Position numbers and translations under genes: made by a program. From positions 62,001 to 126,000 of the forward strand of contig NZ_NQVN01000013.1 of assembly GCF_002770725.1 (NCBI RefSeq): a DNA stretch of 64,000 nt, given 5' to 3'. Positions 18,932-37,644 of the stretch are shown here, in pieces (within the stretch, counting starts at the first letter, position 1; every line of letters starts with the position of its first letter). Source of the DNA: Pleomorphomonas carboxyditropha. GTDB lineage: Bacteria > Pseudomonadota > Alphaproteobacteria > Rhizobiales > Pleomorphomonadaceae. Under the pieces are notes generated by a model, which saw only the letters and a program-made list of their open reading frames with translations, ran no database searches and had not been told where the DNA came from.

Positions 18932-19702
18932 TCAGACGATGGTGTAGCCGCCGTCGATCAGCAGGTCGGCGCCGGTGATCATGTCGGCGGCGCTCGACGC
19001 CAGGAACACGGCGGCGGCGGCGATTTCCTCGGGCAGCGCGAAGCGGCCCACGGGAATGCGCGTCTTCAGCGCCTCGCCCTTGGGATTGTCCCAGGCCTTC
19101 CTGCCGAGGTCGGTGAGGACGACGGTGGGAGAGAGGGTGTTGACGTTGATGCCGTATTTACCCCACTCGGCGGCCAGCACCTTGCTGAGGCCGATGACGC
19201 CGAACTTCGACGCGCAGTAGGAGACGTGCTGGTCGATGGCCACGGTGCCGGCCTGCGAGGCCATGTTGATGATCTTGCCGCCCCGGCCGGCCCTGATCAT
19301 CGCCTTGCCGGCGGCCTGCGACATGTAGAAGGTGCCGGACAGGTTGACGGCAATCGTCTGCTGCCAGTAGTCACGCGGCAGTTCCTCGGCCGGGGCGAGC
19401 TGCACGATTCCAGCGCTGTTGACCATGATGTCGAGGCGGCCGAATGCGTTCACGGCATCGGCGATCACCTGTTCGGCGGCGTCGGGATTGGAGACATCGC
19501 AGCCGAAGGACCGCGCGTCCCTGCCGAGCGTGTCGGCCCTGGCCCGGGCGATCTTTTCGTCGATGTCGATGACGCCGACCGTCGCTCCCTTGGCGGCGAA
19601 GGCGGAGGCGATGGCGCTGCCGATGCCGGAGCCGCCGCCGGTGACGAGCGCGACCTTGCCGGTCAGGGAGAAGCTGAGATCGATGGTGCTGGACTCGGTC
19701 AT
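18932..19702 (-). CDS. SDR-family polyol dehydrogenase, D-threitol dehydrogenase-like (GolD/DthD family)
   Basis: This 256-residue enzyme likely oxidises a sugar alcohol to a ketose with NAD. It has GGGSGIG (about residues 22-28), NSAGI, a catalytic Ser in NMASQAG and YCASK (Tyr near 160), and ends with LLIDGGYTIV. The DthD group, defined in Mycobacterium smegmatis, converts D-threitol to D-erythrulose. Assignment to that group is from recall of the family pattern and is supported by context: the gene is the last of a CUT2 sugar ABC operon. An erythritol/L-threitol-dehydrogenase-like enzyme, a DhaK/DhaL kinase and an RpiB-type isomerase are encoded nearby. A strong 12-bp hairpin separates it from the binding-protein gene, probably lowering its expression relative to that gene. 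Confidence 0.75.
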   Translation of the reverse strand: MTESSTIDLSFSLTGKVALVTGGGSGIGSAIASAFAAKGATVGVIDIDEKIARARADTLGRDARSFGCDVSNPDAAEQVIADAVNAFGRLDIMVNSAGIVQLAPAEELPRDYWQQTIAVNLSGTFYMSQAAGKAMIRAGRGGKIINMASQAGTVAIDQHVSYCASKFGVIGLSKVLAAEWGKYGINVNTLSPTVVLTDLGRKAWDNPKGEALKTRIPVGRFALPEEIAAAAVFLASSAADMITGADLLIDGGYTIV

Positions 19703-19720
19703 GACTGTCCTCGATTTCCA

Positions 19721-19748
19721 GGCGAGGGGCGGCGGTCCGCCCCTCGCC
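19721..19748 (-). promoter_or_regulatory. Intercistronic hairpin downstream of the binding-protein gene
   Basis: GGCGAGGGGCGG pairs perfectly with CCGCCCCTCGCC across a 4-base loop, in the 77 bases between the binding-protein stop and the dehydrogenase start. Hairpins in this position commonly protect the upstream message from decay, which raises binding-protein yield. No T tract follows. Confidence 0.65.
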
Positions 19749-19779
19749 TCGCTGGTAGGTTAGGGATCGGACGTGCCGA

Positions 19780-20772
19780 TTACTGGCGCGTGGCAAGCAG
19801 CGCGTCGACGTTCTCGGCGGTGACCGGCGTCCACGGCACGTTGTATTCCTTGTCCTTGCCGTCGTTCCACGGCATGTCCTTGCCGTACTTGGCCCAGATG
19901 TCGGACTCGGGCTTGTAGTCGCCCTTCTTGGCGTAGAAGATGGCGAGGTCCATGGCGCCCTGGGCCTGGGCGGTGGCGTCCTGCAGGATGGAGGTCATCT
20001 CGCCGGCCTTGGCGGCGCGCAGGCCGTCGGTGATGCCGTCGATGCCGGCAATGGCGAAGGACTTGACGTCGTTGCCGGCCGCCTTGATCGCCTCGATGGC
20101 GCCGAGCGCCATCTCGTCGTTCTGGCCGATGACGCCCTGGATCTGGCCCGGATGGGCGGTGAGCCAGTTCTCCATCAGCTTCTGCGCCTCGGCGCGCGAC
20201 CAGTTGGCGGTCTGGTCCTCAAGCACCTTGACGTCGGGGCACTCGGCGAGCGCCTTCTTGTTGCCCTCGAGGCGCTGGATCTGGGCCGACTGGCCGATCG
20301 GGCCCTCGATGATCACCACGTTGCCCTTGCAGCCGATCTTGTCGAGGACGATCTTGGCTTCCATGTAGCCGGAAACCGTGTCGTCGGAGCCGACATAGGC
20401 GGACAGCAGGTCGGAATTGACGCGGGTGTTGGAGCCGATGACCGGAATCCCGGCGTCATGGGCGGTCTGTACGCCGGTCGCGCCGGCGTCGATGTCGATC
20501 GGCACGAAGATGATGGCGTCGAACTTCTGCGTCACCATGGACTTGAACTGGTCGTTCTGGACCAGGGCGTCGTAGCGGCCGTCGAACACCGTCAGCTCGA
20601 CGTCGCCGTTCTTGACGGCCGGGTGCTGCTGCAGCGCCGCCGACCAGATCTGCATGAACTCGGCGTTGAGGCCGTAGGGCGCGGCGCCGATCTTGAGCTT
20701 CGCCGTCTGCGCCGTGGCCGGCACGGCCAGAAGGGCGGTAGCGGCGACGAGAGCAAGTGCCAGTTTTTTCAT
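19780..20772 (-). CDS. Sugar ABC transporter substrate-binding protein (CUT2), system 2
   Basis: This 330-residue periplasmic protein has a signal peptide (MKKLALALVAATALLAVPATA, cleaved near residue 21) and a type 1 binding-protein fold. Hallmarks are KIGAAPYGLNAEFMQIWSAA, FVPIDIDAGATG, VIIEGPIGQSAQIQRLEGNK and VIGQNDEMALGAIEAIKAAG. Sequence between the lobes differs from system 1, so the ligands may differ even though both operons share a promoter element. The gene lies third in the ATPase-permease-binding protein-dehydrogenase operon, 86 bases after the permease gene. A short polyol such as threitol or erythritol is the best guess from context. Confidence 0.88.
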   Translation of the reverse strand: MKKLALALVAATALLAVPATAQTAKLKIGAAPYGLNAEFMQIWSAALQQHPAVKNGDVELTVFDGRYDALVQNDQFKSMVTQKFDAIIFVPIDIDAGATGVQTAHDAGIPVIGSNTRVNSDLLSAYVGSDDTVSGYMEAKIVLDKIGCKGNVVIIEGPIGQSAQIQRLEGNKKALAECPDVKVLEDQTANWSRAEAQKLMENWLTAHPGQIQGVIGQNDEMALGAIEAIKAAGNDVKSFAIAGIDGITDGLRAAKAGEMTSILQDATAQAQGAMDLAIFYAKKGDYKPESDIWAKYGKDMPWNDGKDKEYNVPWTPVTAENVDALLATRQ

Positions 20773-20858
20773 GACGTTTCCTCCACCTTTTCTTATGACG
20801 CCAATCGACACACCACATGACGGACGGCCGGAGCGGCCCCGTCCTCCTCCTGAAAGAG

Positions 20859-21860
20859 CTAGGCGCCGTAGCTTCTCTTCTGGTCCAGCATGACGGCGCC
20901 GACGATCAGGGCTCCCTTCAGCACCTGCTGGTAGTAGGATTGGATCCCCATCAGATCGAGGCCGTTGTTCATGACGCCGATGATCAGGGCGCCGATCAGC
21001 GTTCCGGTGATGCGGCCGACGCCGCCGGAGAGACTGGTGCCGCCGATGACCACCGCGGCGATGGCGTCGAGCTCGTAGGCGATGCCGGCCTGCGGCAGCG
21101 CCGAGCCGGTGCGGGCGCTGAGCAGCATGCCGGCGATGCCGGCGAGGCCCGCCGAGATGACGTAGACGGCGAAGCGGATGCGCACGACGTCGATGCCCGA
21201 GGTCTTGGCGGCGTGGGCGTTGCCGCCGACGGCGTAGATGTAGCGGCCGAAACGGGTTCGGGTCAGCGTCCACCAGGCCAGCCCGAAGATGACGGCCAGG
21301 ATGATCACCGGGGCGGGAATGCCGAACACGTGGCCGGTGCCGATCCAGCGGAATTCGGGCGTCAGCGCCGGCACGGGACGGCCGCCGCCGTAGATCAGCG
21401 TCAGGCCGCGCGCCGCCGACAGCATGCCGAGCGTGGTGACGAAGGCGGGAACCGCGAAATAGGAGACGATGAGGCCCGACAGCGCGCCGCAGGCGACGCC
21501 GACCAGGACGCCGATCGCGAGCGGAATGACCACCGGATAGGGCGCGCCGTAGACGGCGGCGGTCGACGAGGTGGTGGCGAAGCTGGCGCTGACGATGCCG
21601 GCGAGCGCCACCACCGAGCCGACCGACAGGTCGATGCCGCCGGTCAGGATGACGAAGGTCATGCCGACGGCCAGCACGCCGTTGATCGACGTCTGGAGCA
21701 GCACGTTGGAAATGTTGCCGGGCGTCAGGAAGAACTCGTTGGACACCGAGAGAATGACAGCCAGGATCAGGAAGGCCAGAAAGATGCCGTATTCCTGGAT
21801 GAGGGCCCGCCGCTGCTCGGCGGTGAACCATCTGGACCGGGTCTCGCTCATTGACACCAT
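20859..21860 (-). CDS. Sugar ABC transporter permease (CUT2), system 2
   Basis: This 333-residue membrane protein has the BPD_transp_2 signature FVILTGGIDLSVGSVVALAG near residue 75 and the late loop ELDAIAAVVIGGTSLSGGVG. About nine hydrophobic segments are visible. AGGAG lies just before the ATG at 21860. A second in-frame ATG three codons later (MSETRS) has a more usual spacing and may be the true start. It pairs with the two-domain ATPase encoded directly upstream and with the binding protein encoded downstream. Confidence 0.92.
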   Translation of the reverse strand: MVSMSETRSRWFTAEQRRALIQEYGIFLAFLILAVILSVSNEFFLTPGNISNVLLQTSINGVLAVGMTFVILTGGIDLSVGSVVALAGIVSASFATTSSTAAVYGAPYPVVIPLAIGVLVGVACGALSGLIVSYFAVPAFVTTLGMLSAARGLTLIYGGGRPVPALTPEFRWIGTGHVFGIPAPVIILAVIFGLAWWTLTRTRFGRYIYAVGGNAHAAKTSGIDVVRIRFAVYVISAGLAGIAGMLLSARTGSALPQAGIAYELDAIAAVVIGGTSLSGGVGRITGTLIGALIIGVMNNGLDLMGIQSYYQQVLKGALIVGAVMLDQKRSYGA

Positions 21861-21894: not shown

Positions 21895-23373
21895 TCAGGT
21901 CGACAGGTTGACGAGCGCCTGCGCGTCCGTCTCGCCGCGATCGAAGGTGCCGACGCTCCTGCCGTTCCTCATCACCATGATCCGGTCGGCCATGCCCAGG
22001 ACCTCGTCGATCTCCGACGACACCATCACCACCGTGCCGCCGGAATTGGCGAAGTCGCACATGATGCGGTAGATCTCGCGCTTGGCGCCGACGTCGACGC
22101 CGCGCGTCGGCTCGTCCAGCAGCAGAATCCGGGGGTTGCGCAGAAACCACTTGCCGAGCACGACCTTCTGCTGGTTGCCGCCCGACAGGCCGGATACCGG
22201 CATGGTGTCGCGGGCCGCCTTGATCTGGAAATCGGCGCGCATGCGGCGGCTGGCGTCGGCCTCGCCGGCGCGGTTCATGACGAACAGCGGGCTGAGCGTC
22301 GGCAGGCTGGCCATGCAGATGTTGGCCCGGACGGAATCGAGCAGGTTGAGGCCGGTGGACTTGCGGTCCTCGGTGACCAGCGCCACGCCGAGCGCCATGG
22401 CGTCGGCCGGCCTGCGGATGGTCACCTGTTGGTCGTCGATGAGGATGGCGCCGGCCGACGCCTTCTCCAGGCCGAACAGGCACTCGAAGATCTCGGTGCG
22501 CCCCGATCCCATCAGGCCGTAGATCGCGAAGATCTCGCCCTTATGGGCGGAGAAGGAAATCGCCTCGAAGGCGTCCGGCCGGCAAAGATCCTCGACCCTG
22601 ATTCCCACCGCGTCGCTCGGCGTGTTGGTCTTGACGTATTCTTCCGACAGCTCGCGGCCGACGATCATGCGGATCAGGTCCTGGCGCCTGACCTCGGCGA
22701 GCAGGCCGCTGCCGACATAGGCGCCGTCGCGGAAGGCGGTGTAGCTGTCGGCGATCTCGAAGATTTCCGACAGGCGGTGCGAGACGTAGACGACGCCGCG
22801 GCCGAGCGCCTGCAGGCGGCGGATGGCGGCGAACAGCCGCTGCGCCTCCCGCTCGCCGATCGCCGAGGTCGGCTCGTCCATGAAGATCACCTCGGCGTCG
22901 TGGCTGAGCGCCTTGGCGATCTCGACGAGCTGCATCTCGGCCACCGTCAGGTCGTTCATCCGCCGGGTGGCGCGGATGTTGAATTCGAGCTCGTCGAGGA
23001 GGGCCTGCGCCGCCCGGTTCATCGAATTGAAGTCGATGCCGCCGAACCGCCGCGACGGCTCCCGGCCGAGGTAGATGTTCTCGGCCACCGTCATGTGGGG
23101 AACCGGGCTGAGCTCCTGCTCGATGATGGCGATACCGGCGGCCAGCGCCTCGGCGGGGCTGGCGTAATCCACCTCGACGCCCCGGCGCCGGATGACGCCG
23201 CCGTCGCGCTTGTAGATGCCCATCAGGATCTTGAGGAACGTCGACTTGCCGGCGCCGTTGCCGCCGCACAGCGCGTGAACCGACCCGGCGCGCAATTCGA
23301 GCCGCCCATCGGACAAAGCTGCCACGCCGCCGAAGGACTTCTTCAGCCCCTCGACCTCAAGAAGACGTTCCAC
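21895..23373 (-). CDS. Sugar ABC transporter ATP-binding protein with two ABC domains, system 2
   Basis: This 492-residue ATPase is the first gene of ABC operon 2. Domain one has Walker A GGNGAGKST, signature LTVAEMQLVEIAK and Walker B VIFMDEPTSAI. Domain two has P-loop GLMGSGRTE, signature LSGGNQQKVVLGK and Walker B ILLLDEPTRGVD. The start codon is GTG, with GGAGGAG about six bases upstream. It has no DUF2291 gene in front, unlike system 1, although its promoter region is nearly the same. The protein energises sugar uptake from the inner face of the membrane. Confidence 0.93.
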   Translation of the reverse strand: MERLLEVEGLKKSFGGVAALSDGRLELRAGSVHALCGGNGAGKSTFLKILMGIYKRDGGVIRRRGVEVDYASPAEALAAGIAIIEQELSPVPHMTVAENIYLGREPSRRFGGIDFNSMNRAAQALLDELEFNIRATRRMNDLTVAEMQLVEIAKALSHDAEVIFMDEPTSAIGEREAQRLFAAIRRLQALGRGVVYVSHRLSEIFEIADSYTAFRDGAYVGSGLLAEVRRQDLIRMIVGRELSEEYVKTNTPSDAVGIRVEDLCRPDAFEAISFSAHKGEIFAIYGLMGSGRTEIFECLFGLEKASAGAILIDDQQVTIRRPADAMALGVALVTEDRKSTGLNLLDSVRANICMASLPTLSPLFVMNRAGEADASRRMRADFQIKAARDTMPVSGLSGGNQQKVVLGKWFLRNPRILLLDEPTRGVDVGAKREIYRIMCDFANSGGTVVMVSSEIDEVLGMADRIMVMRNGRSVGTFDRGETDAQALVNLST

Positions 23374-23854
23374 GTGCTCTCCTCCCGCATGCGTCCCCTT
23401 GCTCCGGGACGCATCTTCGAGCCGCCGCAGCCGCGACGTGGCTTATCGACGGCATTCCTCCATCATCAGCCCCGGACTGTCCTCACCACCGGGGGCTGTG
23501 ATCTATTGTTATTTTGCTCAAATCATATGACGACCGTAACACATATGTCAATAGTAGCTGTTTTTATCCTACCAAATGAGTGTGAAATTGTTGCATTTGA
23601 TGGATGGAGCACATCCGGCCAAGACGTGTTGGTCACCCGTCGCGGCATGAATCCGAGAAGGAGGAAGATAATTTCGATTGCGAAAACAATATGTTCTTCC
23701 GGATTCACATCGGTCGAAGGTTTACCCGCCAATGCGCAGCCGCCGGCGGGATGGAGCCATCGCCCCATCCCAAACGTAACAACATCGGCGAGGGAGACGG
23801 GACCGTGGATCCCGCGCGCGATCGGCGACCGGCGCGGGACGACCCGGAACCGGC
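23374..23854. other. Intergenic region upstream of ABC operon 2
   Basis: It contains the shared promoter element (23473-23553). The following 300 bases are lower in GC, include the 3' flank of transaldolase and show no coding pattern in any frame. Confidence 0.65.
23473..23553 (-). promoter_or_regulatory. Promoter/operator of ABC operon 2, shared with ABC operon 1
   Basis: On the minus strand TTGACA (23546-23551) and TATGAT (23522-23527) are 18 bases apart. TGTTACGGT lies in the spacer and AATAACA just after the -10 box, in the same positions as at 7449-7531. Some 60 or more of about 80 bases match, including leader sequence past the expected start site. This conservation beyond the core promoter points to a common regulator-binding site or leader function. 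Confidence 0.75.
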
Positions 23855-24814
23855 TCAGGCCGGCAGCCTGGCGCGCAGCAGCCCGCACAGGGTTTCGGTG
23901 TCCTTGCCGAACTGGCGGATACCCTCGGCCAGCTTTTCGGTGGCCATGGCATCCTCGTTGAGCTGCCAGCGGAAGTTGGTCTCGTCGAGATCGAGCGGCC
24001 GGATGTCGCGCGACGGCGGATTGGCGCCGAGATGACGCTCCACCGGTCCTTCGGCGGCGCGCAATTCCTCCAGGAGGTTGGGACTGATGGTCAGGCGATC
24101 GCAGCCGGCAAGACCGAGGATCTGGTCTGTGTTGCGGAAGGAGGCGCCCATCACCACCGTCTTGTAGCCGAAGGCCCGGAAGTAGTCGTAAATCTCCCGG
24201 ACCGAACGGACGCCCGGATCATCCTCGGCGGAGGTGACGACGGTGCCGTGGGCCTTGTGCCAGTCGGTGATGCGCCCGACGAAGGGCGAGATCAGGAAGA
24301 CGCCGGCGGCGCCGCACAGGGCGGCCTGGGCCTTGGCGAAGATCAGCGTCAGGTTGCAGGCGATGCCCTTTTCCTTGAGCTCGGCCGCCGCCCTGACGCC
24401 CTCCCAGGTGGCGGCGATCTTGATCAGGATGCGCGACGGATCGACGCCGGCCTCCCGATAGATGGCGATCAGCCGTTCGGCGCGCTTCACCGTGCGGGCC
24501 GTGTCGAACGACAGCCGGGCGTCCACTTCGGTCGACACGTAGCCCGGCACGATGCGGGACAGCTCGGCGCCGAAATTGACCGCCAGCTTGTCGAGCGCCA
24601 GCTCGAGGCGGGCCTCCCCGCCGCGCTCGCGGGCAACGGCGTAGGCGACGGCGTCATCCATCAGCGCGGCATATTCGGGCTTGCTCGCCGCCTTGAGGAT
24701 GAGGCTGGGATTGGTGGTGCAGTCCTCGGCCCGCACCGCCTTGATCTGGGCGATGTCGCCGGTGTCGGCGACGATCACCGTGTGACGGGCAAGTCCGGCC
24801 AGTTTGTCGGTCAT
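23855..24814 (-). CDS. tal: Transaldolase
   Basis: This 319-residue enzyme transfers a dihydroxyacetone unit between sugar phosphates in the non-oxidative pentose phosphate pathway. It uses sedoheptulose 7-phosphate plus glyceraldehyde 3-phosphate, with erythrose 4-phosphate plus fructose 6-phosphate as the other pair. Visible motifs are VVADTGDIAQI, AEDCTTNPSL near residue 30, the Schiff-base lysine in ILIKIAATWEG near residue 132, CNLTLIFAKAQA and FVGRITDW. Length and motifs match the classical TalB type. It lies between the polyol ABC operon and a divergent DeoR regulator, which fits a role in disposing of erythrose 4-phosphate made from a C4 polyol. Confidence 0.94.
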   Translation of the reverse strand: MTDKLAGLARHTVIVADTGDIAQIKAVRAEDCTTNPSLILKAASKPEYAALMDDAVAYAVARERGGEARLELALDKLAVNFGAELSRIVPGYVSTEVDARLSFDTARTVKRAERLIAIYREAGVDPSRILIKIAATWEGVRAAAELKEKGIACNLTLIFAKAQAALCGAAGVFLISPFVGRITDWHKAHGTVVTSAEDDPGVRSVREIYDYFRAFGYKTVVMGASFRNTDQILGLAGCDRLTISPNLLEELRAAEGPVERHLGANPPSRDIRPLDLDETNFRWQLNEDAMATEKLAEGIRQFGKDTETLCGLLRARLPA

Positions 24815-25212
24815 GACGGTTTACCTTCCTTCCGGCGTCCGGCGGCAACCGCGCCGCCCGCGCAGGCTTCGTTGGAAATGGGATGATCCGAACGTAGCAC
24901 GCCATCGATCCGAGTCAAGAAAATATAACGTCATTATGTTATTAATGTATCATATATGTAGTTATATTGATACAAACTGGGCATCGCCGATGTGTCTCGC
25001 CCGGCAGGGGCGCAAAACCGGCGATCTCTCGCGAGCGACGACCAGCATGGTCGTCCATGGACCGCGAGCGGCCGGACGACCCGGCCTCATCGGTGCGGCA
25101 CCGACCTGCCGATATCCGCCTAAAGCAGCGCGAGATGTAACGACAAGGTGCTATAATTTTCGCCGAATTGTGCTAACACCGGTACGGATTCCCTAGGAGG
25201 AACGTTACGACC
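24815..25212. promoter_or_regulatory. Divergent promoter region of tal and the DeoR gene
   Basis: An AT-rich stretch at 24917-24985 contains ATAAC-N8-GTTAT around 24922-24941 and several TATA-like tracts, suitable for leftward transcription of tal. A TATAAT at 25152-25157 lies about 55 bases before the DeoR start without a clear -35 box. CTAACACC at 25172-25179 resembles the TAACA half-sites of the two ABC promoters. No gene is supported here. Confidence 0.5.
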
Positions 25213-26031
25213 GTGGATATCGAACATGATCGACGCCGAGGCGTGAAGCCGTCTTCCGGACCGGAAGGACGGCGCAAGGCGCTTCTCGAGTATCTCCTGC
25301 CTGTCGGCTCCGCCCAGGTGGACGAGCTGGCGACGCATTTCGGCGTCAGCCGCATGACCGTTCACCGCGACCTGAAGGTCCTGGAGGAGCAAGGCATCGT
25401 TCGTCGCGTCCACGGCGGCGTCACCGTGCATTCCTCCAGCCTGGTCGAAAGCACCATCCTCTACCGGTCGCGCCTCGCCGACGCCGAGAAGGAGGCGATC
25501 GCCCGCGCCGCCATCGAGATGGTCGAGCCGGGACAGGCCATCATCCTCGACGATTCCACCACCGTGTCGCGCATGGCGCCGCTGATCGTCGGCTGCAAGC
25601 CGCTGACGGTGATCACCAACAGCCTGACGGTGATCGACATGTTGAAGGAGGCGCACGGCATCGAGACCATCTGCCTCGGCGGCCACTACAACTCCCGCTT
25701 CAACGCCTTTTTCGGCTACCTCTGCGAGAAGACCGTGTCGACGCTGAGGGCCAACACGCTGTTCATGTCGACCTCGACCATCCTCGGCGCCGTCGCCTAC
25801 CACCAACAGGAAGACGTGGTGCGCACCAAGCGGGCGCTGATGGAGGCGGTCGACCGCCGGGTCCTGCTGGTCGACAGCTCCAAGTTCGGCATCACGGCGC
25901 TTATCCGCCTGGCCGGCCTCAACGAGTTCGACATCGTGATCACCGACTCCGGCATCCCGCCGGCCGAGGCCGAACTCTTGCGCAAGAGCAACGTGCAACT
26001 GCGCATCGTCGAGACGACGCCGGCGGAGTGA
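25213..26031 (+). CDS. DeoR/GlpR-family transcriptional regulator
   Basis: This 272-residue regulator has an N-terminal winged helix-turn-helix with the family pattern VDELATHFGVSRMTVHRDLK and VLEEQGIVRRVHGGV (about residues 35-72). A DeoRC sugar-phosphate sensor follows with ILDDSTTVSRMAPLI, ITNSLTVIDML and VLLVDSSKFG. Members usually repress carbohydrate operons until a phosphorylated intermediate binds. The start is GTG, with AGGAGG eleven bases upstream. It is divergent from transaldolase and lies between ABC operon 2 and the polyol dehydrogenase-kinase operon, so it is the best candidate for the regulator of the whole polyol region. Confidence 0.9.
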   Translation: MDIEHDRRRGVKPSSGPEGRRKALLEYLLPVGSAQVDELATHFGVSRMTVHRDLKVLEEQGIVRRVHGGVTVHSSSLVESTILYRSRLADAEKEAIARAAIEMVEPGQAIILDDSTTVSRMAPLIVGCKPLTVITNSLTVIDMLKEAHGIETICLGGHYNSRFNAFFGYLCEKTVSTLRANTLFMSTSTILGAVAYHQQEDVVRTKRALMEAVDRRVLLVDSSKFGITALIRLAGLNEFDIVITDSGIPPAEAELLRKSNVQLRIVETTPAE

Positions 26032-29859: not shown

Positions 29860-29991
29860 GTCATCCTCGCGCAGGCGAGGACCTCAGGCAGAACAAAGCT
29901 CCAGCGCAGATATAGCGCTCCAGGACGCAAGGCGCCTGATACGCCCTTCATCACCTTCTCGTCCTGAGGTCCTCGCCTTCGCGAGGATGAC
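29860..29991. repeat. 133-bp interspersed repeat, copy R3 (reverse orientation)
   Basis: Same element as R1 and R2 read on the other strand. It begins GTCATCCTCGCGCAGGCGAG and ends GCGAGGATGAC. The central part differs from R4 at several positions, so it is an older or diverged copy. Confidence 0.8.
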
Positions 29992-30146
29992 AATCTATGG
30001 GAAGCGATGCGCTCGGCGGCGACGGCGTGACAGGGACGTTCCGTAACCGGGCAAATTTCCGGGCAAGCTTGAGAGATAGCGTGTCCGGGGAATTTGCCTC
30101 GGGTCCCAGTGCGCCGGTCTATTCCTTTGTTCCCCAATATAAAGCT

Positions 30147-30278
30147 GTCATCCTCGCGCAGGCGAGGACCTCAGGCAGAACAAAGCTCGACGCCGATATG
30201 GCGCTCCAGCAACGCAAGGCGCCTGATACGCCCCTCATCCCCTTCTCGTCCCGAGGTCCTCGCCTTCGCGAGGATGAC
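30147..30278. repeat. 133-bp interspersed repeat, copy R4 (reverse orientation)
   Basis: It closely matches the reverse complement of R2, including CGACGCCGATATGGCGCTCC. The module between R3 and R4 is the reverse complement of the one between R1 and R2 (CAAGCTTGAGAGATAGCGT shared). Block B is therefore an inverted copy of block A. Confidence 0.85.
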
Positions 30279-30436: not shown

Positions 30437-32191
30437 TCAGCGCTTGTATTCCGGCAGCACCTGATAGCCGGTGTGCAGGAGATCGTGGGCCTTGTGGCTG
30501 CCGATGTCGCCGAGGAAGTCGGCGTAGAGCTCCTTGATGTAGGGATTGTGGTGCGAGCAGCGCCACAGGCCCGCCTGGTCTTCCTGATACAGCCCGGCCG
30601 CCCGCTTGGTCCTGAGCTCGTTGGTGGCGCCGTAGGGCTGGCCGCCGCCGCCGACGCAGCCGCCGGCGCAGGCCATCACCTCGATGAAGTGATAGGGCAG
30701 CTCCTCGCCGGCCTCGCGGGCGGTCCGCACCTTTTCGAGCACCTGCTCGACGTTGGCGAGACCGTGCGCCACGGCGACGCGGATCTCCTTGCCGGCGACG
30801 GTGAGCTTGCCTTCCTTGACGCCCTTGAGGCCGCGGGTCATCTCGAAGTCGACGCGCGGCGCGTCCTCGCCGGTGACGTAGTAGTGCGCCGTGCGCAGCG
30901 CCGCTTCCATGACGCCGCCGGTGGCGCCGAAGATGGTGCCGGCGCCGGTATAGGCGCCGAGCATATGGTCCGGCTGCTCCTCGGGGATGCCGACGAAATC
31001 GATGCCGGACTGCTTGATCATGCGGGCGAACTCACGCGTGGTCAGCGACACGTCGACGTCCTGATAGCCCGACGAGCTCATCTCCTTGGAGCGGATGATC
31101 TCGGACTTCTTGGCCGTGCAGGGCATGACCGACACGACGAAGATCCTGGCCGGATCGATGCCCATCTTCTCGGCGTAATAGGTCTTGGACAGGACGCCGA
31201 CCATCTCGTGCGGCGACTTGCAGCTCGAGAAATGGTCGATCATGTCGCCATGGAACTTCTCCATGAAGTCGACCCAGCCCGGACAGCAGCTGGTGATCAG
31301 CGGCAGCGCGCCCGTTCCTTCGAGCAGCCGGCTCTTGAACTCGGCCGCTTCCTCGATGATCGTCAGGTCGGCACCGAAATTGGTGTCGAACACCGCCTTG
31401 AAGCCCATCCGGCGCAGCGAGGCGTAGATCTTGCCGGTCAGGTTGGCGCCCATCGGGAAGCCGAAGGCCTCGCCGACGGCGACGCGGACGGCCGGCGCGA
31501 TCTGCACCACGCAATAGGCATCGGGATCCTGCAGCCTGTTCCAGACGTCGACGGTCTCGTCATACTCGACGATGGCGCCGGTCGGGCAATGGGCCGAGCA
31601 CTGGCCGCAGCGCACGCAGGGCGAATCGGCCAGAGGAATGTCGCCGGCCGCCGCGATGCGCGTCTTGAAGCCGCGGTTGAGGAAACTCAGCGCCCAGACG
31701 TTCTGGTGCTGCTGGCAGACGGTGATGCAGCGGCCGCACAGCACGCATTTGCGCGGATCGAGCACGATGCTGCGGGTGGAGGTGTCGAGCGGCAGGTCGG
31801 GGACGACGCTCGGCAGCTCGGAGCCGGTCATGCCGAAGTCGGCGGCGAGCGCCTGCAATTCGCAGTTCTGGTTGCGGAGGCAGGTCAGGCATTCGTTGGG
31901 GTGCCGCGACAGCGTCAGTTCCAGGACGCCGCGCCGCACTTCGACGATTTCCGGCGTTTCCGTCAGGATGTCCATGCCGTCGTCGATGGGCGTGCAGCAC
32001 GAGCGCAGCATCTTGCCGGTGTTGTTCACCTTGACGATGCAGATGCCGCAGGCGCCGGTCGCCTCGAGATCCGGATGCTTGCAGAGCGTCGGAATCTTCA
32101 CGTGAGCCTTGCGCGCCGCGTCCAGGATGGTGGTTCCCGGAGCAACCTCCACGGGCACGCCGTTAATCGTTGCGTTGATCATGTCTGTCAT
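30437..32191 (-). CDS. hndD: [FeFe]-hydrogenase catalytic subunit (HndD/HydA type)
   Basis: This 584-residue enzyme reduces protons or oxidises hydrogen at an H-cluster. From the N-terminus it has a plant-type [2Fe-2S] domain (CKHPDLEATGACGIC) and a His-Cys cluster site HPNECLTCLRNQNC. Two [4Fe-4S] motifs follow (CVLCGRCITVC, CVRCGQCSAHCP). The three H-cluster signatures are TSCCPGW near residue 304, MPCTAKKSE near 360 and EVMACAGGCVGGGGQP near 510. All match active group A enzymes, so this is not a sensory homologue. Length equals HndD. ATG at 32191 was chosen; ATG at 32182 is possible. Encoded with NuoF- and NuoE-like subunits, it is probably an NAD(P)-linked, possibly electron-bifurcating enzyme. 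No HydE, HydF or HydG maturase gene is in the window. Confidence 0.95.
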   Translation of the reverse strand: MTDMINATINGVPVEVAPGTTILDAARKAHVKIPTLCKHPDLEATGACGICIVKVNNTGKMLRSCCTPIDDGMDILTETPEIVEVRRGVLELTLSRHPNECLTCLRNQNCELQALAADFGMTGSELPSVVPDLPLDTSTRSIVLDPRKCVLCGRCITVCQQHQNVWALSFLNRGFKTRIAAAGDIPLADSPCVRCGQCSAHCPTGAIVEYDETVDVWNRLQDPDAYCVVQIAPAVRVAVGEAFGFPMGANLTGKIYASLRRMGFKAVFDTNFGADLTIIEEAAEFKSRLLEGTGALPLITSCCPGWVDFMEKFHGDMIDHFSSCKSPHEMVGVLSKTYYAEKMGIDPARIFVVSVMPCTAKKSEIIRSKEMSSSGYQDVDVSLTTREFARMIKQSGIDFVGIPEEQPDHMLGAYTGAGTIFGATGGVMEAALRTAHYYVTGEDAPRVDFEMTRGLKGVKEGKLTVAGKEIRVAVAHGLANVEQVLEKVRTAREAGEELPYHFIEVMACAGGCVGGGGQPYGATNELRTKRAAGLYQEDQAGLWRCSHHNPYIKELYADFLGDIGSHKAHDLLHTGYQVLPEYKR

Positions 32192-32217
32192 TTCGACCAC
32201 TTCTCGATCTCGGGAAA

Positions 32218-33873
32218 TCAGGCTTCGGCAGCCACGGGCTTCTTCAGGCGCTCGGTGAACTCCGAGCTGAAATGCTTCAGCGCCGACAGCACCGGGTTGG
32301 GAGCCGTCTGTCCGAGCGCGCACAGCGAGCCCTTCTGCATGGCCTGGGCGATCATCCTGATGTTGGCGATGTCCTCTTCGGTGCCGTCGCCGGCCACGAT
32401 CTTGTCGAGAAGATGCAGCATCTGCGTGCCGCCGATGCGGCAGGGCGCGCACTTGCCGCAGGATTCGTCGACGCAGAAGTCGAGATAGAAGCGGGCGAGC
32501 TCGACGACGCTGTCGTGGTCGTCGATGACGATGAGGCCGCCGGACCCCATCATCGAGCCGAGCTGCTGCAGGTGCTCGTAGGAGATCGGCGTGTCGAACT
32601 GGCTTTCCGGGATCATGCCGCCCGACGGACCGCCGGTCTGCACGCCCTTCACCTTGCGGTCCGTGCCGGTGCCGCCGCCGATCGTCTCGACGATCTCGCG
32701 GATGGTGATGCCCATGGGAACCTCGACGAGGCCGTTGTGGGCGATCTTGCCGGTCAGCGCGAACACCTTGGTGCCCTTGGACTTTTCGGTGCCCTTGGCG
32801 GCGAACCACTCGGCGCCCTTCAGCAGGATGCGCGGCACGTTGGCCAGCGTCTCGACGTTGTTGACGCAGCTCGGCTTGTCCCACAGGCCCTTGACCGAGG
32901 GGAACGGCGGACGCGGACGCGGCGTGCCGCGCTTGCCCTCCACCGAGGCGATCAGGGCGGTTTCCTCGCCGCAGACGAAGGCGCCGGCGCCGAGGCGGAC
33001 GTCGAAGTCGAAGCTCCAGCCGGAGTTCAGGATGTTGCGGCCGACGAGGCCGGCCTGGCGCGCCTGGCGGATGGCCTTCTCGATGCGGTCGACGGCCAGC
33101 GGATATTCGGCGCGGATGTAGAACACGCCGTTGGTGGCGTTCATGGCGCGCGCGGCGATCATCATGCCCTCGAGCACCGCATGCGGGTCGCCTTCGAGCA
33201 CCGAGCGGTCCATGAAGGCGCCGGGATCGCCCTCGTCGCCGTTGCAGATGACGTATTTGACGTCGGACTGCATGCGGCGGGCGAAATCCCACTTGAGGCC
33301 CGTCGGGTAGCCGGCGCCGCCGCGGCCGCGCAGGCCGGAGGCCAGCACTTCCTGGCAGATTTCCTCGGCCGACATGCTCAGCGCCTTCCTGAGGCCCTGA
33401 TAGCCGCCGTGCACCAGGTAGTCGGCGAGCTTCTCCGGATCGGCGTGGCCGTTGTTGGAGAGCACGACGCGCTCCTGCATGGCGAAGAAGGCGGCGTGCA
33501 GGTCGACGACGTGGGCGCCGAGCGCGCCGACCGGGTCGTCGAGCTTTTCGCCGCCGGCGATCGGCGCGATCACCTCGTCGACGAGACGCGTCGCGAGGTC
33601 GGGGGTCATCTCGCTGAACAGGATGTCCTCGTGCGCCTTGGAGGTCATGCGCACCAGCGGCCCCTTGCTGCACAGGCCCATGCAGCCCGTGCCGCCGACC
33701 TGAACCTTGCCCTCCAGCCCCTTCGCCGCGAGATCGGCCTTGAGGCGCGCGACGATGTCCGCCGCGCCGGACGACTGGCAGCCCGTGCTCGAGCAGCAGA
33801 CCAGGCGCACTTCCATCGCTTGCTGTTTGGCAAGCTCGGCGGCAGCTTTCACTTCAAGCTCTTCCGGCTTCAT
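32218..33873 (-). CDS. hndC: NADH-binding hydrogenase subunit (NuoF/HndC/HydB-like)
   Basis: This 551-residue flavoprotein connects NAD(P)H with the hydrogenase. An N-terminal thioredoxin-like [2Fe-2S] domain (CCSSTGCQSSG and GTGCMGLCSKGP) precedes the NuoF core with GLRGRGGAGYPTGLKWDF for NADH and ICNGDEGDPGAFMDR for FMN. An SLBB domain and the [4Fe-4S] site SCGKCAPCRIGGTQM...GSLCALG follow. The protein ends soon after, at KKPVAAEA. It therefore lacks the C-terminal two-cluster ferredoxin domain found in Thermotoga HydB and many HndC proteins. It lies 26 bases upstream of the catalytic subunit gene. The missing domain bears on how ferredoxin would bind if the enzyme bifurcates electrons. Confidence 0.93.
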   Translation of the reverse strand: MKPEELEVKAAAELAKQQAMEVRLVCCSSTGCQSSGAADIVARLKADLAAKGLEGKVQVGGTGCMGLCSKGPLVRMTSKAHEDILFSEMTPDLATRLVDEVIAPIAGGEKLDDPVGALGAHVVDLHAAFFAMQERVVLSNNGHADPEKLADYLVHGGYQGLRKALSMSAEEICQEVLASGLRGRGGAGYPTGLKWDFARRMQSDVKYVICNGDEGDPGAFMDRSVLEGDPHAVLEGMMIAARAMNATNGVFYIRAEYPLAVDRIEKAIRQARQAGLVGRNILNSGWSFDFDVRLGAGAFVCGEETALIASVEGKRGTPRPRPPFPSVKGLWDKPSCVNNVETLANVPRILLKGAEWFAAKGTEKSKGTKVFALTGKIAHNGLVEVPMGITIREIVETIGGGTGTDRKVKGVQTGGPSGGMIPESQFDTPISYEHLQQLGSMMGSGGLIVIDDHDSVVELARFYLDFCVDESCGKCAPCRIGGTQMLHLLDKIVAGDGTEEDIANIRMIAQAMQKGSLCALGQTAPNPVLSALKHFSSEFTERLKKPVAAEA

Positions 33874-33916
33874 AACAGTCCTACTTCATGTCTGGAATTG
33901 TTCGGATTTCGGCGGC

Positions 33917-34462
33917 CTATTCGGCGTCGGCGGCCTCGGCGGCAACGTGCATCGGCTGGTCGTGCCCGACCTGCTCGAGCAGCCCGTGGGCGTTGGTGAC
34001 GTCCTGCTTGCCGTAGACCTTGCCGTTGACCGAGGCGAGCGGCGCGAGACCGCAACAGCCGAGGCAGCGCACCCCCTGGAGGTGGTATTCGCCGTCCGGC
34101 GTGCTTTCGCCTTCCTTGATGCCGAGCTCGTCCTCGATGCCGTGCAGCAGCTTCGGCGAGCCCTTGATATGGCAGGCCGTGCCGGTGCACACCGAGATGA
34201 TGTATTTTCCGGGACTTTCCAGCTTGAAGTAATTGTAGAAGGTCAGCACCTCGTAGATGTTGGCCAGCGGAACCCCCATCTCGCGCCCGAGCTTCATGGC
34301 GGATTCGCGCGGCACATAGCCGAGCCGCCCCTGAAGTTCGTGCAGCGCCATGATGAGGCTGCCCCGCTTCCTCTTCCATTTTTGCGCCAGGACGATGATT
34401 TCGTCCTCCGGAGCCTCTTCGACTTCGGATTCGATGTCCTCCACCACGCTGTCTTCACTCAT
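33917..34462 (-). CDS. hndA: NuoE-like [2Fe-2S] hydrogenase subunit (HndA/HydC-like)
   Basis: This 181-residue protein starts with an acidic tail (EDSVVEDIESEVEEAPEDE), longer than usual, then the NuoE core: LIMALHELQGRLGYVPRESA, YNYFKLESPGKY, and the four cluster ligands in VCTGTACHIKGS and CLGCCGLAP. It carries one [2Fe-2S] cluster and forms part of the NADH-oxidising module with the NuoF-like subunit. It is the first gene of the three-gene operon, with 43 bases to the next. Confidence 0.93.
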   Translation of the reverse strand: MSEDSVVEDIESEVEEAPEDEIIVLAQKWKRKRGSLIMALHELQGRLGYVPRESAMKLGREMGVPLANIYEVLTFYNYFKLESPGKYIISVCTGTACHIKGSPKLLHGIEDELGIKEGESTPDGEYHLQGVRCLGCCGLAPLASVNGKVYGKQDVTNAHGLLEQVGHDQPMHVAAEAADAE

Positions 34463-34872
34463 CTTTTTTGTCCGTGCAGCCTTTGTTGTTATTTCAATCG
34501 ATTTAATTGCCAGGCGAACAGTTCTGCCTATCCAAGTCCGTCAGTTAATGAGGAATCCCTCCAACCAACCCGCCGTCCGGTCGGCCCCGAATATTTAGAT
34601 GTTTATTGTCATGTTTTCGGAGTCCACCAGGCGTTACGGTCCGTGCGTCCGCCCAACACTTCGATAGGCTTTCACATCATCGCGCCGTCATCAAGAAGTA
34701 GAGTTCCATATACGGCAATATAAACATGCAAATCGAAACGTTACGATGGATCAATCATTCCGTTTTTCGCCTGTAGACCGGTCTTGGGACGGCTTTCAGC
34801 CGCCCGCTTCCGTCCGGCCGACATGGCGGGACGGGGTCCCCCAGCCGGGATGTTGCGCCACCTTCGGCGCTG
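34463..34872. other. Intergenic region upstream of the hydrogenase operon
   Basis: Leftward promoter DNA for the hydrogenase genes should lie in 34463-34750, which is AT-richer than average. TGTTGTTATTT at 34484-34494 is identical to part of the ABC operon 1 promoter region (7479-7489). The rest, up to the stop of the isomerase gene at 34873, shows no coding pattern. An FNR-type site was looked for and not found convincingly. Confidence 0.5.
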
Positions 34873-35355
34873 TCAGCGGTCGCACGCGCCAAGGCTCGCC
34901 GCGTATTTCCGGTCGACGTCCTCGATGGCTTTCACATTCCCTCCCGATGGCCCGTTCGGATCAAACTTTCCGGTGAGGTCGAGGAAGGTCTCGGCGATCA
35001 GCTTGGCGTGCTCGACGCCGACGACGCGGGCGCCCATGGTGATGATCTGGGCGTCGTTGGAAAGCGCGGCCCGCTGGGCGGAATAGACGTCGTGCGTCAG
35101 GGCGGCCCGAATGCCGCGCACCTTGTTGGCGCTGATGCAGACGCCGATGCCGGTTCCGCAGATGAGGATGGCCCGGTCGTAGGTGCCGTCCAGCACGCCC
35201 GTCGCGACGCGGTCGGCAAGATTGGCGTAGAAGGGGTCAGCGACATTGCCGGTACGCGACACTTCGAACACGTCGAAGCGCGTCTTGAGATGCTCGGCCA
35301 GCACATGGGCCAGCCCTTCCCCGGCACTGTCACCGGCCACCGCCACCTTGATCAT
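34873..35355 (-). CDS. RpiB/LacAB-family sugar-phosphate isomerase (EryI/DerI-like candidate)
   Basis: This 160-residue cytoplasmic isomerase has the family opening [20 protein letters not shown], the phosphate-binding and catalytic loop [20 protein letters not shown] (Cys near residue 70) and late His/Arg contacts. RpiB proteins interconvert ribose and ribulose 5-phosphates. EryI of Brucella and DerI of mycobacteria belong to the same fold and turn erythrulose 4-phosphate into erythrose 4-phosphate. Location between polyol catabolic genes and a divergent transketolase favours the C4 reaction here. The start is fixed by GAGAGGAAAG before the ATG; eight more in-frame codons upstream look non-coding. 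Confidence 0.82.
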
Positions 35356-35500
35356 GCTTTCCTCTCCGCGTGTTGGCACCCGTCTGCGCCGGTCGGGCCT
35401 TATGGCCTCTGCCGCGTGGATGTGAACTCACCCGGCGCGTCTCCCGGCGGGGACGATCAGAGTCTCATCATTCTGTGCGTCTCGGGGCTTTCTGGGCGGA

Positions 35501-35607
35501 ACATAACACCGTAACAGGCAAAATCAACCTATTTGTGTTGGTTTGATAACTTATGTTGATATTTTTGTGCCTTTGCGCTAGGAACTGTCTCAAACAGGAG
35601 AGGCATC
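35501..35607 (+). promoter_or_regulatory. Divergent promoter region of isomerase and transketolase genes
   Basis: The AT-rich stretch 35515-35580 contains ACCGTAACA at 35508-35516, the same nine bases found at the core of both ABC promoters (7508-7516 and 23533-23541). TTGATAACTTATGTTGAT follows. CAGGAGAGG, ending six bases before the ATG, is the transketolase ribosome site. Clear -35 and -10 boxes cannot be assigned with certainty. Confidence 0.5.
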
Positions 35608-37644
35608 ATGTCGACCACGTCTCAATGGATCATGGAAAAGGCCACGCGTGCCCCGATCGATTTCCAGCTCGCCAATTGCATCCGGGCGCTCGCCATCGAC
35701 GCCGTCGAAGCGGCCAATTCCGGGCATCCCGGCGCGCCGCTCGGCATGGCGGACGCCGCCACGGTGCTGTTCGCACGCCATTTGAAGTTCGACGCCGCCC
35801 ATCCCGACTGGCCCGACCGCGACCGGTTCGTGCTGTCCAACGGCCATGCCTCGGCGCTGCTTTACGCGATGCTCTATCTCACCGGCTATGAGGATATGAC
35901 CATCGATCATATCAAGGCCTTCCGCCAATGGGGATCCAGGGCGGCCGGCCATCCGGAATACGGCCATGCCAGGGGCATCGAGACCACCACCGGCCCGCTC
36001 GGCCAGGGCATCGCCGGGGCGGTCGGCATGGCATTGGCGGAACGGCGCCTGGCCGACGAATTCGGCGCCGACCTCGTCGATCACCACATCTTCGCGCTGT
36101 GCGGCGACGGCTGCCTCGAGGAAGGCATCAGCCAGGAGGCCGCCTCGCTGGCCGGCCATCTCGGCCTCGGCAAGCTGATCGTCCTTTACGACGACAACGG
36201 CATCACCATCGACGGCTCCACGACGATCAGCTTCTCCGAAGACGTTCCCGCCCGCTTCCGCGCCTGCGGCTGGCACGTCCAGGCCTGCGACGGGCACAAC
36301 GTGGCTGCCCTCGACCAGGCGATCGCCGCCGCCAAGGCCGCCACCACCCGTCCGTCGCTGATCGCCATGCGCACGGTGATCGGCTTCGGCTCGCCCAACA
36401 AGGCGGGCAAGGAATCCTCGCACGGCGCGCCGCTCGGCGCCGTCGAGGCGGCCGCCACCAAGGCGGCGCTCGGCTGGACCGCCGCCCCGTTCGAGATTCC
36501 CGGCGAGCTGCTCGCCCGCTGGCGCGAGATCGGCGGCCGCGGCATGACGGCGCGCAAGGCCTGGCAGGAGCGCCTGGCGGCCCGGCCGGCCGATGTTCGG
36601 GCGGAGTTCGAGCGGCGGATGGGCGGCGCGCTGCCCGCCGGTTATCCGGACGCCGTCGAGGCGCTCAAGCGCGACCTGTTCGCCAAGCCGCAGAAGGTGG
36701 CGACGCGCCGCGCCAGCCAGATCGCCCTCGAGGCGATCACCGCCGCGGTGCCGGAAATGATCGGCGGCTCGGCCGATCTCACCGGCTCCAACCTCACCCG
36801 CGTCAAGGCGGTGGACAGCCAGTTCACCCGCTCGCAGTCCGGCCGCTATGTCGGCTACGGCGTGCGCGAGTTCGCCATGGGCGCCGTCATGAACGGCATG
36901 GCCGCCCACGGCGGCCTCATTCCCTATGGCGGCACCTTCCTGGTGTTCTCCGATTATGCGCGCGGCGCCATCCGCCTGTCGGCGCTGATGCGCGTCGGCA
37001 CCATCTACGTGATGACCCACGATTCGATCGGCCTCGGCGAGGATGGCCCCACGCACCAGCCGGTGGAACATCTGGCCTCGCTGCGCGCCCTGCCGCGCCT
37101 CCTGGTATTCCGGCCGGCCGACGTGGTCGAGACGCTCGAATGCTGGGACGTCGCCGTGCGCAACCGCCATCGGCCGTCGCTGCTCGCCCTGTCGCGGCAG
37201 GCGGTGCCGCAACTGCGCGGCGGCGAAGGAGAAGACCCCGCCGGGAATCGCGCCGGCCTCGGCGCCTATGTCATCCGCAGCTTCGGCGGCGACAAGCGGG
37301 ACGTGACGCTGCTCGCCACCGGCACCGAGGTGTCGCTGGCGGTCGAGGCGGCGGAAGCGCTGGCAAAGGACGGCCTGGCGGTGGCCGTGGTGTCGATGCC
37401 GTGCTGGGAGCTGTTCGAGGAGCAGCCGAAGGCCTATCGGCAGCAGGTGCTCGGCGCGGCGCCGCGCCTTGCCGTGGAGGCCGCCGGCAAGTTCGGCTGG
37501 ACGCGCTACGTCGAGAGCGAGGACGACGTCGTCGGCCTCGACGACTTCGGGGCGTCGGCGCCGGCCGAGCGGCTCTACGCCGAGTTCGGCATCACCCGCG
37601 AGGCCATCGTCGCCAAGGCGAAGGCCCTGGCGGGGCGCGCCTGA
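35608..37644 (+). CDS. tkt: Transketolase
   Basis: This 678-residue thiamine-diphosphate enzyme moves two-carbon units between sugar phosphates. Conserved segments include AVEAANSGHPGAPLGMADAA near residue 35, the thiamine-binding pattern GDGCLEEGISQEAASLAGHL...YDDN near residue 170, and ETTTGPLGQG. The second half has the pyrimidine domain FAMGAVMNGMAAHG and THDSIGLGEDGPTHQPVEHL. It uses erythrose 4-phosphate with xylulose 5-phosphate to give fructose 6-phosphate and glyceraldehyde 3-phosphate. The gene is divergent from the RpiB-type isomerase and shares promoter sequence with the ABC operons, so it looks like a pathway-dedicated copy rather than the housekeeping one; that is inference. Confidence 0.95.
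   Translation: MSTTSQWIMEKATRAPIDFQLANCIRALAIDAVEAANSGHPGAPLGMADAATVLFARHLKFDAAHPDWPDRDRFVLSNGHASALLYAMLYLTGYEDMTIDHIKAFRQWGSRAAGHPEYGHARGIETTTGPLGQGIAGAVGMALAERRLADEFGADLVDHHIFALCGDGCLEEGISQEAASLAGHLGLGKLIVLYDDNGITIDGSTTISFSEDVPARFRACGWHVQACDGHNVAALDQAIAAAKAATTRPSLIAMRTVIGFGSPNKAGKESSHGAPLGAVEAAATKAALGWTAAPFEIPGELLARWREIGGRGMTARKAWQERLAARPADVRAEFERRMGGALPAGYPDAVEALKRDLFAKPQKVATRRASQIALEAITAAVPEMIGGSADLTGSNLTRVKAVDSQFTRSQSGRYVGYGVREFAMGAVMNGMAAHGGLIPYGGTFLVFSDYARGAIRLSALMRVGTIYVMTHDSIGLGEDGPTHQPVEHLASLRALPRLLVFRPADVVETLECWDVAVRNRHRPSLLALSRQAVPQLRGGEGEDPAGNRAGLGAYVIRSFGGDKRDVTLLATGTEVSLAVEAAEALAKDGLAVAVVSMPCWELFEEQPKAYRQQVLGAAPRLAVEAAGKFGWTRYVESEDDVVGLDDFGASAPAERLYAEFGITREAIVAKAKALAGRA

Follow-up and report, generated by a model that had tools for sequence, protein, structure and literature searches.

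The closest described relatives of the gene system analyzed here are the tetritol (four-carbon polyol) pathways of Mycobacterium smegmatis and the classic erythritol (ery) loci of Brucella and the rhizobia. The M. smegmatis pathways proceed by oxidation, then phosphorylation, then isomerization to erythrose 4-phosphate (PMC12780249, PMC10733421), and the eryABCD-eryH-eryI loci reach the same end product (PMC3599248), which is also the one proposed here. We examined a 64,000-nucleotide stretch (the window) of the 5.88 Mb genome of Pleomorphomonas carboxyditropha, covering positions 62,001 to 126,000 of the forward strand of contig NZ_NQVN01000013.1 (G000:C4:62001-126000, the source genome being labelled G000). 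An earlier reading of the letters without database searches (the sequence-only reading) had proposed a nearly complete threitol/erythritol pathway at 18932-37644. Our analysis indicates that a large gene cluster most likely feeds erythritol and threitol into central metabolism, with oxidation first and phosphorylation after. We hold with good confidence that a regulated C4-polyol supercluster is the best explanation of the locus as a whole, and we infer every substrate and every reaction of the tetritol route from family membership and context. All of the genes named in the sequence-only reading (the short-chain dehydrogenase/reductase (SDR), CUT2 importer, transaldolase, DeoR regulator, EltD-like dehydrogenase, DhaL and DhaK, RpiB-type isomerase and transketolase) proved to be intact open reading frames (ORFs) with a matching family, at or near the places it gave, some of them scoring below a curated cut-off. 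The proposed catabolic genes of the window are as follows.

18932 to 19702, minus strand: DthD-like SDR, proposed to convert D-threitol to D-erythrulose (NCBIfam NF005309, GolD/DthD, 384.1 against a cut-off of 286)
23855 to 24814, minus strand: transaldolase (TIGR00874, talAB, 431.5 against 396.2)
26081 to 27193, minus strand: EltD-like zinc dehydrogenase, proposed to convert erythritol to D-erythrulose (above no curated NCBIfam cut-off)
27323 to 27979, minus strand: DhaL kinase subunit (TIGR02365, 165.3 against 138.3)
27976 to 28971, minus strand: DhaK subunit, proposed D-erythrulose kinase (TIGR02363, 345.8, below the dhaK1 cut-off of 406)
34873 to 35334, minus strand: RpiB-fold isomerase of the DerI/EryI type (NF051858, DerI, 224.5 against 240; generic RpiB subfamily, 148.6 against 135)
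35608 to 37644, plus strand: transketolase (TIGR00232, 823 against 682)

The supercluster extends beyond the window: the upstream region of this contig (L032, G000:C4:45000-62000) carries a second DeoR-type gene (deoR2), a LerI/EryH-like isomerase of the triose-phosphate isomerase (TIM) fold, a second kinase pair (dhaL2 and dhaK2) and a second zinc dehydrogenase that is 24% identical to EltD; the isomerase and the kinase pair are about 2-5 kb from the window. From deoR2 to the transketolase gene (tkt) the supercluster covers about 43 kb, with unrelated genes interspersed. With these genes, and with a second, ery-type importer inside the window, the pathway is more complete than the 'nearly complete' one first proposed.

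EltD-, LerI- and DerI-like enzymes appear to be common to the M. smegmatis pathways and the window system. The window differs in having its kinase split into DhaK and DhaL, dedicated transaldolase (tal) and tkt genes, a second importer of the ery type, and DeoR- and SorC-type regulators. The mycobacterial tetritol kinases are reportedly fused. A 2015 study of M. smegmatis reportedly described the DthD step, and a DthD-like SDR and a CUT2 importer are said to be further common features. With the classic ery loci, for which a Shinella locus (L156; eryA-B-C-D-H-I, gene names assigned from order and product) served as our reference, the window system shares the importer type (ATPase 76% and permease 70% identical) and the EryI-type (71%) and EryH-type (50%) isomerases. 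It differs in that phosphorylation follows oxidation and in a SorC-type regulator just 25% identical to EryD. We found no ortholog of EryA in the source genome, where the best of 21 FGGY-type kinase matches is 31% identical over full length; no cluster protein matched EryB or EryC of the Shinella locus, a comparison that did not include a genome-wide search. The expected lack of eryABC genes is thus borne out for EryA, and the contrast with the classic rhizobial locus holds for the dehydrogenases and the kinase but not for the importer type or the two isomerase types. Rhizobial cassettes with the order ATPase-permease-SBP-DthD-DhaK-DhaL (SBP, substrate-binding protein; Shinella L173, Sinorhizobium L175, Ensifer L176) have SBPs 83-86%, DthD proteins 67-76% and DhaK proteins 66-67% identical to those of the window, but show no eltD, rpiB, tal or tkt match in the 18.9 kb examined. 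The chemistry is known from M. smegmatis, and the importer and isomerases are known from the ery loci. What is new here is the combination of oxidize-first enzymes, a split kinase, an ery-type importer, dedicated tal and tkt genes and two DeoR regulators.

In the proposed mechanism, erythritol would enter through the ery-type importer (CUT2-2) and D-threitol through a rhizobial-type importer (CUT2-1), and EltD and DthD, respectively, would oxidize them to D-erythrulose. A two-subunit, ATP-dependent DhaKL would then form D-erythrulose 4-phosphate, which the RpiB-fold isomerase would convert to D-erythrose 4-phosphate for transaldolase and transketolase to pass into the pentose phosphate pathway. 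L-threitol would probably be converted to L-erythrulose, phosphorylated by the second DhaKL and isomerized by the LerI-like protein, joining the route at D-erythrulose 4-phosphate; it is gene order that would assign each kinase to one erythrulose enantiomer. Context gives good support to this tetritol reading, and it also supports the sequence from tetritol through erythrulose and its phosphate to erythrose 4-phosphate and the exit by transaldolase and transketolase that had been suggested before.

Consistent with the first step, the window holds at 18932-19702 an SDR of the DthD family known from M. smegmatis-type pathways, though the model that identifies it includes GolD, and the protein is 76% identical to a Sinorhizobium protein annotated as D-threitol dehydrogenase. 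The EltD-like protein has the cysteine and GHE motifs of zinc sites, which we take to have their usual roles, and is 54.7% identical to a Providencia protein annotated as erythritol/L-threitol dehydrogenase. The Providencia gene stands beside a CUT2 importer. Likewise, the relative G007 has a second EltD-like protein (55%; C62:84521-85597, L062) beside a CUT2 permease.

Both subunits of an ATP-dependent DhaKL kinase are encoded; DhaK falls below the dhaK1 cut-off, with the active-site motifs present, whose roles we presume to be those of the family. The source genome has four DhaK matches, and dhaK2 and dhaL2 are 42.5% and 39.7% identical to the window subunits. No DhaM (TIGR02364) match was found in the source genome, while the same model matches in three of 14 control genomes, so that the pair should use ATP; a DhaKLM system linked to the phosphotransferase system (PTS) was ruled out because the genome as a whole lacks a DhaM match. 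The two window subunits match models of dihydroxyacetone kinases, and DhaK matches structures of such kinases as well, as would be expected if the dehydrogenases formed dihydroxyacetone for DhaKL in a dihydroxyacetone or glycerol route. RpiB, LerI, transaldolase and transketolase are, however, not needed to make dihydroxyacetone phosphate. A quickly built DhaK tree of 87 rows, most of them from EltD loci, has several long branches and places the window DhaK in a 33-row clade (SH-like approximate likelihood ratio test (SH-aLRT) 100), with 27 rows from EltD loci, three from rhizobial DthD cassettes and two others. The E. coli dihydroxyacetone kinase lies outside this clade and groups instead with another DhaK of the source genome (L004, SH-aLRT 99). 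We therefore regard the dihydroxyacetone route as highly improbable; the tree agrees with an erythrulose kinase, and says no more than that. In the rhizobial cassettes L173, L175 and L176 we also noted a regulator fused to a second DhaK (annotated so in L173 and L176) and followed by a second DhaL, possibly a ketose-binding sensor.

The window RpiB is 71% identical to the Shinella EryI, which scores 253.4 on NF051858, and its best structural match in the PDB is 5ifz (6.8e-63). For the LerI-like protein the best match is 11ef, named L-erythrulose-1-phosphate isomerase (1.1e-76), compared with 4.6e-53 for the best TIM; it is 50% identical to the Shinella EryH and has one further match in the source genome, 39% identical. 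These proteins bear on whether the locus might instead serve a pentitol such as D-arabitol or xylitol, by way of a GolD-type arabitol dehydrogenase, an ordinary RpiB, and transaldolase and transketolase for pentose phosphates. GolD acts on D-arabitol and is covered by NF005309 as well as DthD, the window RpiB passes the generic RpiB cut-off, and tal and tkt would suit any pentose phosphate route. Yet none of the 21 FGGY-type kinase matches of the genome is on the cluster contig (C4), which has DhaKL, the two other RpiB proteins of the genome reach only 106-112 with the DerI model, where that of the window reaches 224, and the LerI-like isomerase would have no evident role. A pentitol pathway thus appears unlikely, and the tetritol route remains our preferred reading of these enzymes.

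A requirement for a seven-carbon step is known from Brucella suis 513, whose growth on erythritol depends on either Tal or an Fba/bisphosphatase route that leads from erythrose 4-phosphate to sedoheptulose 7-phosphate; an fba tal double mutant fails to grow (PMC11005471). This requirement fits the presence of tal at some EltD loci and glpX at others. We found tkt, tal or glpX beside EltD at 49 of 80 loci (44 of the 75 outside the genus) and none of the three nearby at the rest; a pathway with erythrose 4-phosphate as its end product would be expected to need such genes.

The 80 loci are the best of at least 573 confirmed EltD loci from named genomes, with five from this genus and several genera over-represented, and neighborhoods were taken as 10 kb around EltD, or less at contig ends. 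They fall under 41 genus or group labels, one of which (L071) is the genus member G010, leaving at most 40 groups. Genes for dhaK were found at 74 of the loci, dhaL at 73, rpiB at 61, tkt at 30, glpX at 25, tal at 16 (10 at 45% identity or more), a DthD-like SDR at 45% or more at 25, and lerI at five. The association persists outside the genus, where 75 loci gave dhaK at 69, dhaL at 68, rpiB at 58, tkt at 28, glpX at 25, tal at 11 and a DthD-like SDR at 23, with dhaK, dhaL and rpiB together at 56; by label, dhaK was found under 38 of 41 and rpiB under 30. The third step, rpiB, is thus not always linked to the EltD locus. The pairing with a two-subunit kinase, which the sequence-only reading thought might be undescribed, is therefore not peculiar to this genome, although among the titles and abstract openings listed in a literature search, mostly outside subscription journals, none described the EltD-DhaKL-RpiB gene set. 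Within the genus, EltD is present at 91% identity or more in eight of 13 other genomes and DhaK in nine (eight at 91% or more, G011 at 65%). The two genes adjoin in the eight genomes that have both at this level, with dhaL and tal alongside in all eight and deoR in seven (no deoR match in G003), a grouping that goes beyond chance. G007 additionally has an rpiB next to dhaK, and in G011 the order is dhaL-dhaK-rpiB-tkt, without a hydrogenase at that place.

Enterobacterial and Bacillota records carry much of the catabolic set in combination with different transporters and regulators. An EltD match at 1e-60 was found in 21 of 72,556 plasmid records, and relatives at 65-68% identity are carried by Raoultella, Klebsiella, E. 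coli, Salmonella and Pseudalkalibacillus plasmids. Raoultella plasmid pKPYL1 has the order tkt-tal-rpiB|eltD-MFS-dhaK-dhaL (MFS, major facilitator superfamily), and Salmonella plasmid pSA20021456.1 the order tal-rpiB|eltD-MFS-SDR-dhaK-dhaL, its SDR passing the GolD/DthD model (365.9 against 286). These two clusters share eltD, dhaK, dhaL, rpiB and tal with the window, together with tkt (Raoultella) or the SDR (Salmonella), but have MFS genes instead of ABC importers, another regulator and no lerI match alongside. A Pseudalkalibacillus (Bacillota) record reads eltD-MFS-rpiB-dhaK-dhaL-glpX with no tal or tkt, a Halomonas plasmid record has tal, rpiB, dhaK and kin of CUT2-2, and the Providencia record has, of the cluster genes, the CUT2 importer only. 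In Verrucomicrobiota and Spirochaetota the core was found on one metagenome contig each. The Raoultella and Salmonella plasmids (L063, L064) are typed as conjugative and have transposase genes near their tetritol-type clusters. On a Klebsiella plasmid (L157) we noted tkt-tal-rpiB together with a sorbitol-type PTS IIA, PdxA and a four-carbon acid sugar kinase, as well as a LerI-like TIM protein (51%) accompanied by a sugar-binding regulator; these may form a pathway for four-carbon acids that leads to the same erythrulose phosphates.

A phenotype is available for Alicyclobacillus, where use of erythritol separates A. acidoterrestris from A. acidocaldarius. In PMC6236696 (Table 2), 57 of 60 A. 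acidoterrestris isolates were positive on erythritol and three non-typical, and 11 of 12 A. acidocaldarius isolates were negative and one non-typical; the A. acidocaldarius type strain DSM 446 forms no acid from erythritol (PMC3035248). We found an EltD at least 83% identical to that of A. fastidiosus in four of 15 Alicyclobacillus genomes, namely A. fastidiosus itself, A. acidoterrestris DSM 3922 (G044), G053 (probably A. suci) and G046. DSM 3922 has counterparts of the window proteins EltD (66%), SDR (39%), RpiB (47%), DhaK (49%) and DhaL (37%), along with a tal-like gene (31%) and an MFS gene. No EltD was found in A. acidocaldarius DSM 446 (G042), whose single match is 31% identical. The fit of genotype to phenotype is a correlation between two named species that differ in many genes. 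A search for EryA in the 15 genomes gave no match but had no positive control and shows little, and the literature search described above found no genes for erythritol use by Alicyclobacillus; nor did it find growth data for Pleomorphomonas on erythritol. We consider it evenly balanced whether the window belongs to a widespread, little-described route built on a portable EltD-DhaKL-RpiB core that is shared among Proteobacteria, Bacillota, Verrucomicrobiota and Spirochaetota. In this view the core would be combined with either a CUT2 or an MFS transporter, with a DeoR or a SorC regulator, and with transaldolase or GlpX for the seven-carbon step; it would be carried between enterobacteria by conjugative plasmids and would underlie the Alicyclobacillus erythritol test. 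Erythritol is a mass-market sweetener, and bacterial gene sets for its use seem poorly mapped beyond the ery loci and M. smegmatis. A recognizable core with exchangeable parts would allow tetritol use to be predicted from genomes, enterobacterial plasmids included, would let the genes behind a test routinely used in the juice industry be tested directly, and would give pathway engineering other kinases and isomerases to build into erythrulose phosphate modules.

Two importers of the CUT2 type, with similar promoters, lie in the window.

2822 to 3769, minus strand: SBP2, binding protein of CUT2-2 (ery-locus type), 82-85% identical to SBPs of Shinella, Rhizobium, Paracoccus and Roseibium among the 25 listed of 234 matches
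3873 to 4931, minus strand: CUT2-2 permease, 70% identical to that of the Shinella ery locus
4938 to 6482, minus strand: CUT2-2 ATPase, 76% identical to that of the Shinella ery locus
6484 to 7191, minus strand: DUF2291-type protein of the CUT2-2 operon, 52.5% identical to its Shinella ery-locus counterpart
7483 to 7526, minus strand: CUT2-2 promoter region
19780 to 20772, minus strand: SBP1, binding protein of CUT2-1 (proposed for D-threitol), 83-86% identical to rhizobial cassette SBPs
20859 to 21860, minus strand: CUT2-1 permease, ribose-permease-like, below cut-off
21895 to 23373, minus strand: CUT2-1 ATPase, RbsA-like, below cut-off
23508 to 23551, minus strand: CUT2-1 promoter region

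CUT2-2 is an ABC importer of the ery type in all four components, its SBP2 being 85% identical to a Shinella SBP that adjoins the ery-locus permease in CP093338. The best structures for SBP2 are 5ibq and 4ry0, and 4ry0 is Rhizobium etli RHE_PF00037, which its gene number presumably places in a p42f region (L172) of R. etli. That region, an isoapionate locus with OiaX, has relatives of SBP2 (52%), lerI (49%), rpiB (58%) and dhaK2 (48%), as an apiose or isoapionate route would have it. SBP2 is nonetheless far closer to the ery-locus SBPs among the matches listed, EltD and DthD would have no evident role, and among the ORFs read, to which no dedicated search was added, there is no OiaX-like protein or four-carbon acid sugar kinase; we consider such a route extremely improbable. 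Returning to the tetritol route, CUT2-1 and the SDR match the rhizobial DthD cassettes, the Sinorhizobium cassette (L175) being 86% identical in the SBP, 76% in DthD and 66% in DhaK and those of Shinella and Ensifer similar. Among eight relatives with the block that were compared, the CUT2-1/dthD cassette is present in G005, G009 and G010 and was not seen in G001, G003, G007 or G013; G008 gave only an ATPase match (69%). Of the loci of this genus, L072 (P. oryzae DSM 16300) has the cassette and none was seen in L075 (P. koreensis DSM 23070). SBP1 finds its best structures in the M. smegmatis proteins 4rsm, 4rs3 and 5hko, the first two of which were reportedly crystallized with tetritol or pentitol ligands; an AlphaFold model (predicted local distance difference test (pLDDT) 83.7) added little to the sequence match. 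Over 84 bp the two importer promoters share 83% identity, suggesting that both importers are probably under one control. The shared pattern, derived from the two sites themselves, had no match in 100 shuffles.

Features that may take part in regulation are the following.

24959 to 24972, plus strand: putative operator WASTTATRTTGATA between tal and deoR
25213 to 26031, plus strand: DeoR-family regulator, AgaR/SrlR-like, below all equivalog cut-offs
35548 to 35561, plus strand: putative operator with the WASTTATRTTGATA motif, between rpiB and tkt

The motif is also present upstream of deoR2. Its role as an operator is suggestive at most, since it was drawn from the sites counted and the chance mean of 0.05 is not independent. 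With up to two mismatches it recurs between rpiB and tkt in six of eight relatives (G001, G005, G007, G008, G009 and G013, not G003 or G011). A further regulator, which spans the window edge, we read as SorC type. Before deoR2 (L032 11090-11260, G000:C4) a stretch is identical to the tkt promoter and first codons at 126 of 155 bases (81%), and looks like the trace of an arrangement still present in G003 and G007.

Several points weigh against the tetritol assignment. NF005309 covers GolD too and the best structure for the SDR (4npc, 1.9e-107) is named sorbitol dehydrogenase, so that D-threitol is a putative substrate. The nearest EltD by name, at 54.7% identity, owes its name to annotation only, and no characterized EltD, DerK or LerK sequence was among the comparison sequences. 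The window RpiB lies under the NF051858 D-erythrulose-4-phosphate isomerase equivalog cut-off, so that it is not assigned to that family although it would act like a member, and over the generic one, and the LerI-like protein passes the NCBIfam TIM cut-off (347.6 against 293). Two DhaK proteins of the window clade (S. meliloti and Ponticoccus) have neither dehydrogenase nearby, the DhaK tree has the sampling and long branches described, and 11 of the 41 EltD labels, Asaia included, lack a nearby rpiB, some of them ending at contig ends. SBP2 is related to the SBP beside the R. etli isoapionate locus, and WASTTATRTTGATA is patchy, occurring with up to two mismatches in the tal-deoR gap of three of the seven relatives that have the gap. 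Finally, the tetritol roles are predicted from sequence and context.

One set of genes within 18932-37644 stands apart from the polyol genes.

30437 to 34462, minus strand: HydABC, NADH-dependent [FeFe] hydrogenase of group A6, not part of the pathway (HydA, NF040763, 782.7 against 765)

The three-subunit hydrogenase stands between dhaK and rpiB in the source genome and in G001, G005, G008, G009 and G013. This position, and its dependence on NADH by family, would suit a system that gets rid of the NADH from polyol oxidation as H2 in fermentation. We consider this very unlikely, as no match to the WASTTATRTTGATA motif precedes hydC in the window and the hydrogenase is also found apart from the cluster. 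G002, G004 and G012 have it with no rpiB or tkt match in the surrounding 19.9 kb, and in G003 and G007, with the order lerI-deoR2-tkt-rpiB-hydCBA, it is at the cluster edge. By these arrangements the polyol genes include rpiB and tkt but not the hydrogenase, which was therefore rejected as a pathway member; the interval 18932-37644 first proposed thus runs across genes foreign to the system, which the sequence-only reading did not mention. Ten of the 13 other genus genomes carry the hydrogenase at no less than 90% identity, and a search of 26 genomes at family and order level gave no match at 1e-100. Another HydA-like protein (43%) is encoded at G000:C55:112735-114459.

A 29-base palindromic element (GTCATCCTCGCG...) occurs in eight copies in two intergenic islands of the window (10944-11365 and 29860-30278), four in each and alternating in orientation. 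One island is inside the gap between dhaK and the hydrogenase and may mark a rearrangement point. Elsewhere in the window, at 15161-16303, an SDR passes the model for mycofactocin-coupled SDRs (313 against 300), which would be unexpected if the genome is without mycofactocin genes.

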